DNA of 64,000 nt, from NCBI GenBank assembly GCA_019186965.1, contig JABARV010000015.1, positions 1 through 64,000 on the forward strand. Reading direction: 5' to 3'. Numbering within the stretch: position 1 is the first letter of the stretch; each line of letters opens with the position of its first letter. The notes beneath the pieces are model-generated. The model did no database searches, had not been told where the DNA came from, and saw nothing but the letters and a program-made list of their open reading frames with translations. Below, one piece after another: positions 4,201 to 10,630 of this stretch. The stretch comes from Turneriella sp. (lineage in GTDB: Bacteria > Spirochaetota > Leptospiria > Turneriellales > Turneriellaceae). Made by a program: the position numbers and the translations under genes.

Positions 4201-4419
4201 ATGGAAGCACTTTATGTACTTCTTATTTTTAGTCTTCTTTTAGGGGTAAGTTTTTTAGTGGCGTTTTTTTGGGCACAAAAAAATGGCCAGTTTGAAGATA
4301 CTAAAACGCCTGCAATACGCGTTCTTTTTGACGACATCGATGCAAAACGTGCGGCAGATAAACGGAATAATAATCCAGAGAAAAAAATGAAAGTCACAGG
4401 AGAATATCATGGCAGTTGA
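4201..4419 (+). CDS. ccoS: Cbb3 oxidase maturation protein CcoS/FixS
   Basis: A 72-residue protein with one N-terminal membrane helix (about 5-25) followed by FFWAQKNGQFEDTKTPAIRVLFDD, which matches the CcoS hallmark of a W-x2-K/R-x-GQF-x-D segment. The family is needed with CcoI to load cofactors into CcoN. Its ATG follows the ccoI stop directly and its end overlaps ccoNO by 11 bases, which indicates translational coupling. The tail beyond residue 50 is longer than usual and charged. Confidence 0.88.
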   Translation: MEALYVLLIFSLLLGVSFLVAFFWAQKNGQFEDTKTPAIRVLFDDIDAKRAADKRNNNPEKKMKVTGEYHGS

Positions 4420-6538
4420 AACCGGGGTTTTAGAAACCTTCGAATACGACAACCGTATCGTTCGCAAATTTGCTCTCGCAACGATTGTATGGGGTGTCAT
4501 TGGAATGTTGGTGGGGGTACTCATCGCTATCCTGCTTTATGCGCCCAATTATTTGGGTAACCACTCGATTTTATCGTTTGGCCGCATTCGCCCTTTGCAT
4601 ACAAACGCGGTCGTTTTTGCGTTTGTAGGTAATGCAATTTTTTTAGGCGTCTACTACTCACTGCCTCGCCTCTTAAAAACAAGTATGTATTCGAACCTTC
4701 TTTCGAATATCCACTTTTGGGGGTGGCAGCTTATTATCGTTGCGGCGGTGATAACGCTGCCTTTGGGGTATACATCGAGCAAAGAATACGCCGAGCTCGA
4801 ATGGCCGATTGATATTGCCATTACTGCCGTTTGGGTCGTGTTTGGTCTCAATATGCTTATGACAATTCTCAACCGCCGCGAGAAACACCTCTACGTGGGT
4901 ATTTGGTTTTATATCGCGACGTTCGTGACCGTGGCAATGCTGCATATCGGCAATTCGCTCGCGGTACCGGTTTCGTTCCTCAAAAGTTATTCGGTTTATG
5001 CAGGCGTTCAAGACGCGTTAGTGCAGTGGTGGTATGGCCACAACGCGGTGGCATTTTTTTTGACAACGCCTTTTTTGGGCATCATGTACTATTTTGTACC
5101 AAAAGCGGCTAACCGGCCCATCTATTCGTACAAACTTTCGATCATCCACTTTTGGGGCTTGGTATTTATTTATATTTGGGCAGGCCCCCACCACCTTCTT
5201 TATACGTCGCTACCCAATTGGGCGCAATCTTTAGGCACCGTGTTTTCGCTCATGCTACTCATCCCCTCTTGGGGCGGGGTATTGAACGGACTTTTGACGT
5301 TACGCGGCGCGTGGGATAGGGTGCGCCAAGACCCTATCTTGAAATTCCTCATTGTGGGAGTTACCGCGTACGGTATGTCGGTCGTCGAAGGGCCGATGAT
5401 GTCTCTTAAAAGCGTCAACGCACTTACGCATTACACCGACTACGTGGTAAGCCACGTCCACTTGGGTGCTCTTGCGTGGAACGGAGGACTTACTGCGGCG
5501 ATGCTTTATTACATCGTGCCGCGCCTTTACGGTAGGCCACTTTATAGCGTTCGTTTAGCAAACTTCCACTTTTGGATTGCGACCATCGGTATGATTTTCT
5601 ATGTTGTGCCGCTTTATGTTGGCGGTATTACGCAATCACTCATGTGGAAACAATTTACCGCACAGGGGTTGTTGCAGTATCCCAACTTTTTAGACACGGT
5701 AACACAAATTGTGCCAATGTACATCCTTCGTTCTATTGGGGGAACTCTTTACCTTACAGGTTTCTTGGTACTTGCATATAATCTTTGCCGCACTATCCTT
5801 GCTGGAAAATTTGTTGAAAAAGAAACCGCGAGCGCACCACCTTTAAAAGTGGCGATGGCGCATGTTGAAAAAACGACTTACAAGCACCGTATTTTAGAGC
5901 GTAAACCTCTTGTTTTTACCGCGCTTACTCTTATTGCAGTGATGGTGGGTGGTATCGTTGAATTTGTTCCCGTGGCGATGGTGCGCTCGAACATCCCCAC
6001 AATTTCCAGCGTGAAACCCTACACACCGCTTGAACTCGAAGGCCGCGATATTTACATCCGCGAAGGGTGCAGCAATTGCCATTCGCAAATGATCCGTCCT
6101 TTCCGTGCAGAAACCGAGCGCTACGGTGAATACTCGAAAGCGGGTGAGTTTGTGTACGATCATCCTTTCTTGTGGGGTTCTAAACGTACGGGGCCAGACC
6201 TCCACCGCGTGGGTGGAAAATATAACGACGCATGGCACTACCAACATATGTTAAACCCACGTAAAACATCGCCGGGTTCTATTATGCCTGCGTACCCTTG
6301 GCTTTTTGACCACTCGTTGGATACTTCGCTCACCGCCAAAAAAGTGAAAGCGTTGCAATCGATCGGTGTCGATTATCCTGCGGGCTACGATAAACAAGCT
6401 TTGGCTGATCTCCAAGCACAATCACAAAAAATTGCCGATGACCTTACGCAAAATGGAATGAAAGTCACCGCCGATAAAGAAATTATTTCTGTGATTGCAT
6501 ACTTGCAACGCTTGGGTACCGACATTAAAGCGAAGTAG
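4409..6538 (+). CDS. ccoNO: Fused cbb3 oxidase subunits I and II (CcoN-CcoO)
   Basis: A 709-residue fusion. Residues 1 to about 480 are CcoN, the haem-copper catalytic subunit, with 12 or more membrane helices, haem/copper ligand regions RPLHTNAVVF, WWYGHNAVAFF, GPHHLLY and SHVHLGALAWNG. After a linker and one further helix (about 495-515) comes CcoO, a membrane-anchored monohaem cytochrome c with C554-x2-C557-H558 (GCSNCHSQMIRP) and a later Met-containing segment. The two are usually separate genes; fusions are known in Bacteroidetes and some spirochaetes. No frameshift or internal stop is seen. The oxidase reduces O2 at low concentration while pumping protons. Confidence 0.95.
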   Translation: MAVETGVLETFEYDNRIVRKFALATIVWGVIGMLVGVLIAILLYAPNYLGNHSILSFGRIRPLHTNAVVFAFVGNAIFLGVYYSLPRLLKTSMYSNLLSNIHFWGWQLIIVAAVITLPLGYTSSKEYAELEWPIDIAITAVWVVFGLNMLMTILNRREKHLYVGIWFYIATFVTVAMLHIGNSLAVPVSFLKSYSVYAGVQDALVQWWYGHNAVAFFLTTPFLGIMYYFVPKAANRPIYSYKLSIIHFWGLVFIYIWAGPHHLLYTSLPNWAQSLGTVFSLMLLIPSWGGVLNGLLTLRGAWDRVRQDPILKFLIVGVTAYGMSVVEGPMMSLKSVNALTHYTDYVVSHVHLGALAWNGGLTAAMLYYIVPRLYGRPLYSVRLANFHFWIATIGMIFYVVPLYVGGITQSLMWKQFTAQGLLQYPNFLDTVTQIVPMYILRSIGGTLYLTGFLVLAYNLCRTILAGKFVEKETASAPPLKVAMAHVEKTTYKHRILERKPLVFTALTLIAVMVGGIVEFVPVAMVRSNIPTISSVKPYTPLELEGRDIYIREGCSNCHSQMIRPFRAETERYGEYSKAGEFVYDHPFLWGSKRTGPDLHRVGGKYNDAWHYQHMLNPRKTSPGSIMPAYPWLFDHSLDTSLTAKKVKALQSIGVDYPAGYDKQALADLQAQSQKIADDLTQNGMKVTADKEIISVIAYLQRLGTDIKAK

Positions 6539-6736: not shown

Positions 6737-7301
6737 AAGAACCGAAGAAGAAAAATTAATGGAGCACGAATACGATGGTATTCGTGAACTTGATAACTAC
6801 ATGCCGCGGTGGTATGTGTTGGCGCTTTATGCCAGTTTTATATTTTGTGTGGGCTATTTAATTTACTACCACGTAATGGGCGGCCCAACGCAGGAGCAAG
6901 AATACGAAATGGAAATAGCAGCTGCACCTAAAGCGGTTAAGCAAGACATTGTCACCGATACAGCGCTTAAACCCCTAACCGATGCAGCCTCTATCGATGC
7001 GGGAGGTAAGCTTTTTGTTGCGCATACGTGCTCAGCGTGCCACAGCGCAAATTTGGGAGGGCTTGTAGGGCCAAACCTTACCGATGAATTTTGGATACAC
7101 GGGTGTGACTATAAGGCAGTGATGACAAACGTATCTACGGGGTTTCCTCAAAAGGGGATGATGCCTTACGGAAACTCCAAGCCCATGAACCAAATCGAAT
7201 TGCAACAACTGGTAAGTTTTATCTTCTCGAAGAAAGGCTCTAACCCAACGCCTGCAAAGGCGATTGATAAAGTACGGGAAGTCAAATGCGTGGCTAAGTA
7301 A
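6729..7301 (+). CDS. ccoP: Cbb3 oxidase cytochrome c subunit CcoP, monohaem form
   Basis: A 190-residue protein with an N-terminal acidic stretch, a helix at about 28-48 (PRWYVLALYASFIFCVGYLIYY, of the CcoP type) and one cytochrome c domain with C101-x2-C104-H105 and the candidate axial Met in KGMMPYG. Classical CcoP is about 300 residues with two CxxCH motifs; only one is present here. The stop codon overlaps the ATG of ccoG (TAATG). It receives electrons from soluble cytochrome c or the bc1 complex in the family model. Confidence 0.88.
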   Translation: MDKRTEEEKLMEHEYDGIRELDNYMPRWYVLALYASFIFCVGYLIYYHVMGGPTQEQEYEMEIAAAPKAVKQDIVTDTALKPLTDAASIDAGGKLFVAHTCSACHSANLGGLVGPNLTDEFWIHGCDYKAVMTNVSTGFPQKGMMPYGNSKPMNQIELQQLVSFIFSKKGSNPTPAKAIDKVREVKCVAK

Positions 7302-8905
7302 TGAATATATCGACCGACCCACTAGCGAAAATCGAAGCCGATACCGAGACATTTCGTGACCATATTGGCACAATTACCGCGCAAGGCAAACGCGCTTGGG
7401 TGTACGCAAAAAAACCCAAAGGGCGTTTTTATAAGTGGCGCTCGTTGGTTGGTTATTTGTTACTTACCCTTATGTTTGTTGGTCCTTTTATACGTATCCA
7501 TGGACAGCCAATACTTCTTTTAAATGTACTGGAGAATAAATATATTATTTTCGGTTTTGTTTTTTGGCCGCAGGATTTTTATCTTGCAGTCTTGGGTATC
7601 CTCTCTTTAGTCCTCACGATCACTCTCTTCACGTCGGTCTTTGGGCGAATATGGTGCGGCTGGACTTGCCCACAAACGGTATTTCTCGAGATGCTTTTCC
7701 GCAAAATTGAATACGCCATCGAAGGCGATTTCCAACAACAAAAAGCGCTCGCCGCTTCGCCGTGGAACGCCAATAAAATTTTGCGTAAAGGTACAAAATT
7801 TGCCGTTTTCTACGCTCTCTCGTTTGCCATCGCGAATACCTTCTTGGCGTACATTATAGGTTCCGATGGTTTGTGGCAAATTATCCGTGAACCGGTTTCT
7901 CAGCACATAGTGGGATTTCTTTCCATCAACGCTTTTACCATCGTGTTCTTTTTAGTCTTCGCGCGTTTCCGTGAGCAGGTGTGCCAGTTCGCGTGCCCTT
8001 ATGGACGCTTGCAGTCGGCGCTTGTTGATAACGACACAATTAGCGTCACATACGACTTCGTGCGTGGAGAAAATCGTGGCACGTTGGGCACGCGCAAAAA
8101 AGCAGCGAAAGCCGAAGCAGAAAAAAATGCGAACCTCGGAACATCCAGTTCTTCGGTTCGCACACAGATGGACATCGTGTCCAGTGCGAACCTCGGAGCA
8201 TCCGGCTCCTTTGTTTCCGCACCGACGGACATCGTGTCCGGCGGAAACCTCGGAACATCCAGTTCCTTCGGGGATTGCATCGACTGCGGTGCGTGCGTTG
8301 TCGTTTGTCCGGCCGCTATCGATATTCGTAACGGTATTCAACTCGAGTGTATTCAATGCACCGCTTGCATCGATGCGTGCGATAAAATGATGGATGCCGT
8401 CGGTAAGCCGCGCGGGCTCATCCGTTACACGTCGTACAACAACGTTCTTGCCAGCAAAGATAAAACAAGTAAAACTAAGCGCAAGTTCCCGATTAAAATG
8501 AGAATCGTGGGCTACATGGCTCTCTGGTTTCTTTTGGTTTCTGTTTTCTCATACCTCATTTTAACGCGTGAAAATATTGAAACGGTGCTCCTGCGCCAAC
8601 CCGGAATGCTCGCGCATAAAATGCCCGATGGCTCTGTCGCGAATCTTTACAACCTCAAATTTTTTAATAAGACATTCGATGCTCAAAACGCCGAACTCAA
8701 ATTGGCAAATGGAGTAGGGGAAATCCGACTTATCGATCCTTTAGGTAAAATCGAAGCACAAAAAGTTGTCGAGGTGCGACTTTTTATTATTCTAAAAAAA
8801 GAAGATATAAAAAGTGAAAGTATACCATTAGCGCTTGAAGTGTGGTCGAATGGACAAAAAGTAAACACACGCTCGACGACGTTTATTGCTACGGGCACTT
8901 TTTAA
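7301..8905 (+). CDS. ccoG: Cbb3 oxidase accessory ferredoxin-like protein CcoG, with repeat insert
   Basis: A 534-residue membrane iron-sulfur protein of the CcoG/RdxA/FixG family, which reduces copper during cbb3 assembly. Visible: membrane helices near 45-65, 90-110, 160-180 and 205-225, the cysteine pairs CGWTCP and CQFACPYGRLQ, two [4Fe-4S] ferredoxin motifs CIDCGACVVVCP (from C326) and CIQCTACIDAC, another helix near 400-420, and the C-terminal IG-like FixG domain. Between helix 4 and the ferredoxin motifs, residues 278-323 consist of a 19-residue repeat (N278, N297, N316 start each unit) made by DNA hairpins. This insert explains part of the extra length over the usual 460-480 residues. 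The frame is intact. Confidence 0.93.
   Translation: MNISTDPLAKIEADTETFRDHIGTITAQGKRAWVYAKKPKGRFYKWRSLVGYLLLTLMFVGPFIRIHGQPILLLNVLENKYIIFGFVFWPQDFYLAVLGILSLVLTITLFTSVFGRIWCGWTCPQTVFLEMLFRKIEYAIEGDFQQQKALAASPWNANKILRKGTKFAVFYALSFAIANTFLAYIIGSDGLWQIIREPVSQHIVGFLSINAFTIVFFLVFARFREQVCQFACPYGRLQSALVDNDTISVTYDFVRGENRGTLGTRKKAAKAEAEKNANLGTSSSSVRTQMDIVSSANLGASGSFVSAPTDIVSGGNLGTSSSFGDCIDCGACVVVCPAAIDIRNGIQLECIQCTACIDACDKMMDAVGKPRGLIRYTSYNNVLASKDKTSKTKRKFPIKMRIVGYMALWFLLVSVFSYLILTRENIETVLLRQPGMLAHKMPDGSVANLYNLKFFNKTFDAQNAELKLANGVGEIRLIDPLGKIEAQKVVEVRLFIILKKEDIKSESIPLALEVWSNGQKVNTRSTTFIATGTF
8128..8266 (+). repeat. 57-bp hairpin repeat, 2.4 copies, in frame inside ccoG
   Basis: The period is 57 bases (AACCTCGG at 8132, 8189 and 8246). 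Each unit holds hairpins: GAAC-ATCCA-GTTC (8139-8151), GGACA-TCG-TGTCC (8170-8182), GGAGC-ATCCG-GCTCC (8195-8209), CGGACA-TCG-TGTCCG (8226-8240) and GGAAC-ATCCA-GTTCC (8252-8266). In unit 1 an outer stem TGCGAACC/GGTTCGCA (8128-8135 and 8155-8162) encloses the first. Stems vary while the ATCC(A/G) loop stays. It encodes a Ser/Gly/Asn-rich 19-residue unit with no stop codon. Confidence 0.85.
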
Positions 8906-9378: not shown

Positions 9379-10148
9379 GCTTTTATCTCTCGGCGTTGAT
9401 GCTGGGTGTCTTTTCACAAGGGCATTGTTTGGGTATGTGCGGGCCGTTGGTGTTGGCGCTGCCAGTAAACGAGAAGAGCCGCACTCTCTCTATTTTTTAC
9501 CGCGTGCTCTATAATATAGGACGCATCACCACGTACGCTACCTTGGGCTTGCTTGTCGGTCTTTTAGGTGTGTTGGTTTCGCTCGCGGGCGTGCAAGCGT
9601 ATATTTCCTATATAGTGGGATCCACGCTGATACTCGTTGCACTCTTGCAGTTGATGCCATTTTTGCGTGTGCATCTTTTTTTTTCACTGCATACACGCAT
9701 TTCACAATCGCTCAGGAGTTTTTGGGAGCGCACCGGTGCATCTAAATTTTTTCTAATGGGCGCGGTCAACGGCCTTTTGCCTTGCGGCATGGTGAGCTCT
9801 GCGCTTATCGCGAGTCTTGCTGCCGCGAGTGCGCTCCAAAGTATGCTGTTTATGTTGTTGTTCGGTTTAGGTACCGTGCCCATGATGCTCGCCGCATCGC
9901 TTTTTGGTGTGTACCTAAGTCCGCGTACACGTAAAGTCCTGGCTATCATGGGTCCGCTTTTTTCAATCGCGTTAGGTGTGTACCTTTTATTACGCCCTTC
10001 GCTTTTTGGAACCTACGCACATACACATATAGCCAGGCTGGAACTTACCGGTTTGGCGGCGCGTTCCTCCCCAGTGGCTTGCAGCCGGAACATTTCTCGC
10101 CTTTGTTGGCTACACGGTGGCCGCAAGGCCAATGGCCGAAGCCGGTGA
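9375..10148 (+). CDS. SafE/TauE-like membrane protein of cbb3 clusters, altered C-terminus
   Basis: A 257-residue polytopic protein of the DsbD_2/SafE group that often closes ccoGHIS clusters and is implicated in copper supply or maturation. The family signatures GHCLGMCGPLVLAL (residues about 15-29) and GLLPCGMVSSALI are both present, with about six helices up to residue 215. The last 35 or so residues are polar, Arg-rich and unrelated to the family. They are read from 10045-10148, the same stretch that forms the abnormal tail of the convergent yafQ-like gene, so the tail probably comes from an inserted GC-rich palindromic sequence. Confidence 0.8.
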   Translation: MSFYLSALMLGVFSQGHCLGMCGPLVLALPVNEKSRTLSIFYRVLYNIGRITTYATLGLLVGLLGVLVSLAGVQAYISYIVGSTLILVALLQLMPFLRVHLFFSLHTRISQSLRSFWERTGASKFFLMGAVNGLLPCGMVSSALIASLAAASALQSMLFMLLFGLGTVPMMLAASLFGVYLSPRTRKVLAIMGPLFSIALGVYLLLRPSLFGTYAHTHIARLELTGLAARSSPVACSRNISRLCWLHGGRKANGRSR

Positions 10149-10323
10149 CTTCGCGATAATTGGCATAATTACCGCTCAGTTTATGATCCTTATTTTTCGT
10201 CGGTAGCGGCTGTTGCTTTACCAGTGAATCAATTATCTTTTTCAGGAGTTCCGGGTTCTTGCCGCGCTTAAGTGTTCTTTTGACATCCTTCTTGAACTGA
10301 TTACTGCGTTCAATTTCTAGCAT
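10045..10323 (-). pseudogene. YafQ/RelE-type toxin with replaced C-terminus
   Basis: It starts at the ATG overlapping the stop of the antitoxin gene (TGATG). Residues 1-58 or so (MLEIERSNQFKKDVKR, then PLPTKNKDHKLSGNYANYREV) match YafQ-type mRNA interferases well. Family members then continue with the catalytic histidine-containing strand and the I-Y-x-I ending; here the sequence changes abruptly after NYREV to an unrelated Cys/Gly/Pro-rich tail read from palindromic DNA (GGCC-GCAA-GGCC and GGCCAATGGCC, about 10112-10136). The catalytic C-terminal part is therefore missing, and the toxin is probably inactive. Confidence 0.75.
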
Positions 10324-10589
10324 CAAATACCCAAGTCCGCATATAATTCGTGAGTCGATTTGAATTTCTTGATGTTCTTTCTCATATTCGATTCTTTGAG
10401 TGTTTTTCGAGTCTGCCTATTTGGCACCTTTACTTCAAAGGGTAAGCCGTTGTTTAATTCAACCTGCTTATAAAATAGCGTTATTGCTTCCGTTGGAGAA
10501 AGCCCCAAAACACCAAAAATATGGTCTACTTTGGTCTTTAGCTTACTCTCCACTCTGGCATTAATTATTGCATCCTTTCTCATAATCAT
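10323..10589 (-). CDS. DinJ/RelB-family antitoxin
   Basis: An 88-residue protein beginning MIMRKDAIINARVESKLK, the ribbon-helix-helix start of DinJ/RelB antitoxins, followed by VDHIFGVLGLSPTEAITLFYKQVELNNGLPFEVK, which is typical of DinJ. The family represses its own promoter and neutralises the partner toxin. The start could be three bases-pairs of codons later, at 10583. It is translationally coupled to the damaged toxin gene at 10045-10323. An intact antitoxin with a broken toxin is a common end state of such modules. Confidence 0.85.
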   Translation of the reverse strand: MIMRKDAIINARVESKLKTKVDHIFGVLGLSPTEAITLFYKQVELNNGLPFEVKVPNRQTRKTLKESNMRKNIKKFKSTHELYADLGI

Positions 10590-10630
10590 TGTGTATTTCA
10601 AACGAAACACAGTGTCAAGAGCTTAGAGAA

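Follow-up and report, generated by a model that had tools for sequence, protein, structure and literature searches.

The question raised by this locus is why an array of palindromic units should lie in frame within a gene of cytochrome oxidase assembly, and whether the encoded peptide or the nucleic acid itself is what has been kept. In the Turneriella DNA analysed here (a stretch of 64,000 nucleotides, referred to below as the window), the host gene ccoG occupies positions 7301–8905 of the forward strand and encodes a cbb3 oxidase assembly protein of 534 aa with Fer4_18 and FixG_C domains. It forms part of a cbb3 oxidase operon of the order fused ccoNO (COX1+FixO), ccoP, ccoG and ccoH/FixH, the first being a single ORF at 4409–6538 in which CcoN and CcoO are fused (COX1 plus FixO domains). 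Further along the window, a RelB/YafQ toxin-antitoxin pair is located on the reverse strand (10045–10610); its YafQ match stops at residue 60, and the protein closes with 33 atypical residues that overlap the convergent DsbD_2 gene at its 3′ end.

The preliminary description of this DNA had placed a hairpin repeat with a 57-bp unit at 8128–8266, in frame before the ferredoxin motif of CcoG. The repeat was recovered as an in-frame forward-strand array of 2.4–2.5 copies, for which TRF gave a period of 57, 2.5 copies and 78% matches at 8128–8271; the start therefore agreed with the earlier one, and the end had to be moved to approximately 8271. The G+C content of the array is 0.583 versus 0.450 in the remainder of ccoG. 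Folding of the array as RNA gave −62 kcal/mol (z −4.75), a value reached by none of 200 shuffles, and folding of the other strand as DNA gave z −5.85. The absence of stop codons, also claimed previously, extends to all six frames, where approximately six would be expected (P ~0.0005).

Each 57-bp unit consists of a 38-nt large hairpin (9-bp outer stem, 5-nt bulge, 6-bp inner stem and 3-nt TCG loop), two linker bases and a 15-nt small hairpin with a 5-bp stem and an ATCC(N) loop. The array opens with half a unit at 8128–8154, comprising the 3′ arm TGCGAACC and the small hairpin GGAAC-ATCCA-GTTCT (8138–8152), as read from the sequence and from alignment of this upstream segment to the last small hairpin; two full units follow, reading NLGTSSSSVRTQMDIVSSA and NLGASGSFVSAPTDIVSGG. 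Both were scored with R1, a covariance model built from eight units, of which R2 is an extension from 132 units. Full unit A (8155–8211; R1 75.4 bits, E 3e-14) carries the large hairpin GGTTCGCAC..GGACATCGTGTCC..GTGCGAACC at 8155–8192 and the small hairpin GGAGC-ATCCG-GCTCC at 8195–8209, and full unit B (8212–8269; R1 76.8 bits, E 1.4e-14) carries TGTTTCCGC..GGACATCGTGTCC..GCGGAAACC at 8212–8249 and GGAAC-ATCCA-GTTCC at 8252–8266, all on the forward strand.

In the protein, the repeat is positioned after the transmembrane part and before the ferredoxin motif GDCIDCG. Residues 280–320, which correspond to the insert, had pLDDT below 50 and no secondary structure in the AlphaFold2 model, which makes it probable that the insert extends the linker as a disordered stretch; in a Foldseek search, the CcoG model matched at the FixG C-terminal domain only. 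The outcome envisaged earlier, that all relatives would share this stretch as a conserved CcoG linker with no repeat at the DNA level, was not what was found: the insert is absent from the relatives or differs in copy number, and three of the seven species of the genus carry it. Related inserts occupy the same linker in genomes G002 and G006, and the linkers of G001, G003, G004 and G005 are shorter and repeat-free. The tree of CcoG and old yellow enzyme (OYE) proteins was too poorly resolved to separate one ancestral ccoG insertion followed by losses from repeated insertion.

The array is not an isolated feature of this gene. A short unit pattern was found at 17 places in the same genome and at none in the reversed control, and these places include a tRNA cluster, intergenic DNA, the start of an mtaB-like gene and the inside of an OYE gene. 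The R1 model gave at least 26 matches in this genome, and R2 gave at least 40, 69, 57, 39, 33, 25 and 30 units in the seven genomes of the genus, the per-genome counts of both models being lower bounds. In a survey of 149 Spirochaetota genomes, the four sampled members of the genus had at least 19–35 matches each, and among the matches listed for the 145 other genomes there were at most three weak ones in each of six genomes and none elsewhere. Rather than being private to ccoG, the insert belongs to a family of palindromic repeats that is specific to this genus and dispersed through its genomes. No match to the repeat was obtained in the phage collection, the Turneriella parva genome paper (PMC3746428) does not mention it, and the literature search returned no relevant paper linking Turneriella with palindromes.

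Another, diverged unit of this TCC family is located on the reverse strand at 351–408 of the window, outside any clear gene (R2 42 bits, E 5e-7 in the window; R1 25.9 bits). The surrounding region (150–450) is a cluster of several hairpin types, with perfect palindromes with TTA loops at 209–235 and 421–447. Family units also adjoin rRNA and tRNA genes. In G005, an identical unit (C1:2847166 and C1:3818411) flanks both copies of a duplicated region resembling the start of 23S rRNA. In a 400-kb sample of the same genome, perfect 6-bp hairpins with TCC-type loops were over-represented approximately tenfold or more (TCC 37 observed versus 3.7 expected, TCCC 18 versus 0.7 and TCCG 13 versus 0.3); small TCC hairpins may thus greatly outnumber the 57-bp unit.

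This dispersal bears directly on the reading of the array as an ordinary minisatellite, in which a variable CcoG linker would have changed by drift and grown by slippage, without the help of any mobile element. Copy number does differ between species, the linker ranges from 13 to 81 residues among homologues, and tandem copies within an array are 83% alike. However, copies of this structured unit are scattered over dozens of unrelated genes and intergenic positions in the genus, orthologues have empty sites, and the compensatory base pairs described below are not created by drift. A minisatellite origin is contradicted by the dispersed family and must be considered very improbable, except as a possible account of changes in unit number within an array. 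Integron attC sites were considered for their length of approximately 57 bp and rejected, as no gene cassettes lie between the copies.

Pfam domains were found in 27 of the 29 host ORFs scanned. The hosts include LeuRS, an RluA-type pseudouridine synthase, MutS (where the insert lies directly before the Walker A strand), PEP carboxylase (PEPC), LpxI, glycogen synthase (GlgA) and COX15, and further thiolase, a DEAD helicase, PurT, NAD synthetase, methylmalonyl-CoA mutase, ceramidase, OYE and others. Filled and empty states of the same site could be compared directly. The DEAD helicase of G002 has an insert of 114 bp (38 aa) that is absent from G000, G001, G005 and G006, and a PurT insert of equal length was present in G002 only, among the orthologues compared. 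Inserts of 57 bp (19 aa) distinguish the thiolase of G002 from that of G001, and the GlgA of G005 from those of G002 and G004. In PEPC, G005 carries two units where its sister G003 carries a single one, and six of the seven species have a filled OYE site, the number of units being 0–5 across species and about one to five where the site is filled. Most genic sites are lineage-specific. The family thus has the properties of a generic RPE-like protein-coding palindromic element, namely a dispersed palindrome, in-frame location within conserved ORFs and insert-free orthologues.

The period of the arrays depends on where they are located. All 19 arrays inside genes had a period of 57, and those at gene edges or between genes had periods of 53, 56, 57, 58, 59 and 62, a multiple of three in 7 of 18 cases (19/19 versus 7/18, Fisher P 4e-5). 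Note that loci were counted as genic by their open frame, which favours multiples of three, a worry limited by the Pfam domains and the orthologues, and that the comparison was made on model-selected loci, an 864-kb random sample having held too few tandem arrays. A filter on reading frame would account for this bias. The earlier suggestion that the insert is "tolerated, possibly selected" is accordingly borne out in its first part by the uniform period of the genic arrays. Its second part, if selection on the peptide is meant, is unsupported, since genic copies are read in both orientations and in five of the six possible frames.

The conserved feature is the hairpin structure. In the alignment of 132 units, which was fitted to the model and hence biased towards structure, 88.8% of the pair cells held standard pairs, against 63.6% with shuffled partners and at most 43% with slid ones, and two-sided changes numbered 597 versus 172; an unfitted MAFFT alignment of eight units gave the same picture. 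The T and C of the apical loops are conserved at 98–100%, with G or C as the third base (TC(G/C)), and the stems are variable. At orthologous genic sites (ccoG, OYE, PEPC, LpxI, ceramidase and mtaB), 73 compensated double changes were counted against a null mean of 8 and maximum of 17, the species pairs not being independent. Since many of these changes alter amino acids, the constraint appears to act on nucleic-acid structure rather than on the peptide.

Loops that stay invariant while stems are compensated over species divergence would also be expected of a functional RNA or DNA site that benefits the cell, as a signal in mRNA stability, processing, nucleoid organization or replication, and is located mainly where it is tolerated. 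The retention of the OYE insert in most species and the units beside rRNA and tRNA genes point the same way. However, genic sites are mostly lineage-specific and hold both orientations, copy number is erratic, and no match to the 57-bp unit was found in Rfam; we regard a beneficial site of this kind as improbable.

The reading preferred here, with a probability of about 0.78, is that of a genus-specific palindromic family that inserts in genes and intergenic DNA, is filtered by reading frame, leaves its peptide as a tolerated by-product and has its hairpins kept by constraint on the nucleic acid. Units would enter intergenic DNA and genes alike through a putative insertion activity, and tandem copies would then arise and vanish locally by slippage or recombination. 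In-frame changes of n × 57 bp (n × 19 aa) at exposed loops or linkers would survive, other genic ones being purged, and the translated peptide would simply be tolerated. The hairpins would be kept across species divergence by constraint on the nucleic acid, either because the folded strand is recognized together with its invariant loop or because one arm is corrected against the other by template switching. The family itself, its covariation, the filled and empty sites, the changes in copy number, the period bias and the predicted disorder in CcoG are all observed, whereas we infer mobility as the source of the units, a frame filter as the reason for the period bias, and the means by which the hairpins are maintained.

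The simplest account would be a non-autonomous palindromic element with local expansion, surviving in genes only in frame at tolerant loops. This account is strained at two points. Within one genome, units at different loci are 55% identical, the same value as for units of different species, and nothing therefore points to a recent burst despite the lineage-specific insertions; by the MITE-like criterion of recent near-identical dispersed copies none was found, the best cross-locus identity being ~84%, apart from duplicated rRNA operons. Moreover, target-site duplication is not general. A second copy of the small hairpin lies upstream in 36 of 84 arrays only, which is not a uniform duplication, and the thiolase, PurT and NAD synthetase inserts are flanked by direct repeats of 13–18 bp. 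A hairpin family that keeps its loops fixed, has its stems rewritten from locus to locus and lies in frame in conserved enzymes could tentatively be taken for something new: a structure-recognized mobile element with a putative mobiliser, or hairpins that arise on the spot through template switching and are preserved as structures afterwards.

GTAG REPs are mobilised by RAYTs; if the present repeat were a classical REP element, its short hairpins would be moved in trans by the IS200/Y1 (RAYT-like) transposases that the genus encodes. Y1_Tnp genes are present in five of seven genus genomes, the hairpins combine conserved loops with variable stems as REPs do, and intragenic REPs are known (PMC3733652). 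However, the Y1 proteins match IS200 and fall below the RAYT equivalog cut-off, only one R1 unit occurs in 44 kb around the Y1 genes, and these genes are flanked by perfect TTAA-loop palindromes of a different family. Tags at the foot of the hairpins showed no clear excess: among 132 units, GTAG occurred once and CTAC six times (2.8 and 2.7 by chance), and CGTC nine times and GACG twice (6.6 and 7.0 by chance). CGTC REPs are defined by a CGTC tag, an 8–9 bp stem, a 4–5 nt loop and a CCA tail, and the loop of the large hairpin here is 3 nt. A classical REP element is therefore an unlikely description. RAYT/IS200 was rejected as the mobiliser, the flanking palindromes differing from the 57-bp units; no transposase gene flanked by the repeat was found, and no mobiliser emerged from the Y1 candidates examined.

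The palindromes beside the IS200-type Y1 genes are an observation in their own right. They flank the genes at C7:27103–27426 and C7:22139–22462 of the genome containing the window, and also those in G005 and G001, for example as TCGTTGCCACGGGT-TTAA-ACCCGTGGCAACGA; this 32-mer is the same in two species and represents a second, REP/TIR-like palindrome family.

The initial statement that protein-coding palindromic insertions are known from Rickettsia but apparently undescribed in this group proved too narrow, as intragenic palindromes also occur in Wolbachia and, in the form of GTAG/CGTC REPs, in many bacteria, those of the CGTC type being reported also for the phylum Spirochaetes and having no dedicated transposase (PMC3733652). 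The Rickettsia RPE and Wolbachia WPE are palindromic repeats located in frame in conserved protein genes and in intergenic DNA, often at the same orthologous site (PMC3767692; PMC6649704), and the present units share this placement. RPEs are 100–150 bp long and are described as losing repeat identity with time (PMC6649704), whereas the units found here, compared with RPEs by description, are 57-bp tandem two-hairpin units with stems compensated across species, in a probably free-living host of a different phylum; they are not filed as RPEs because the host genus belongs to Spirochaetota. GTAG/CGTC REPs are hairpins of 20–40 nt with heterogeneous stems that also occur inside ORFs, with DNA repair and tRNA genes among their hosts, for example in R. 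conorii and O. terrae (PMC3733652). The variable stems and intragenic location are shared, but our units show no clear excess of either tag, form head-to-tail 57-bp arrays instead of HH dimers, and combine a longer compound hairpin with a 3-nt apical loop. In Nematomorpha mitochondria, perfect coding hairpins of up to 284 bp have arms kept complementary, both arms encoding conserved residues (PMC6649704); the hairpins of Turneriella likewise lie within coding sequence with complementary arms, but they are additions to the gene, marked by a 3-nt loop motif and repeated with a tandem period. By analogy, the repeat may be regarded as a genus-specific variant of protein-coding palindromic repeats, working like RPEs or intragenic REPs and set apart from RPEs by description.

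Protein-coding palindromes are best known from the obligate intracellular Rickettsiales, in which they are easily put down to weak selection. The host here is probably a free-living spirochete genus, with the repeat inside MutS, LeuRS, PEP carboxylase and NAD synthetase. With stems that are compensated inside coding sequence, selection on the structure of the nucleic acid can be told apart from selection on the protein, and the cultured type species (probably T. parva) makes both the movement of the repeat and its tolerance by enzymes testable.
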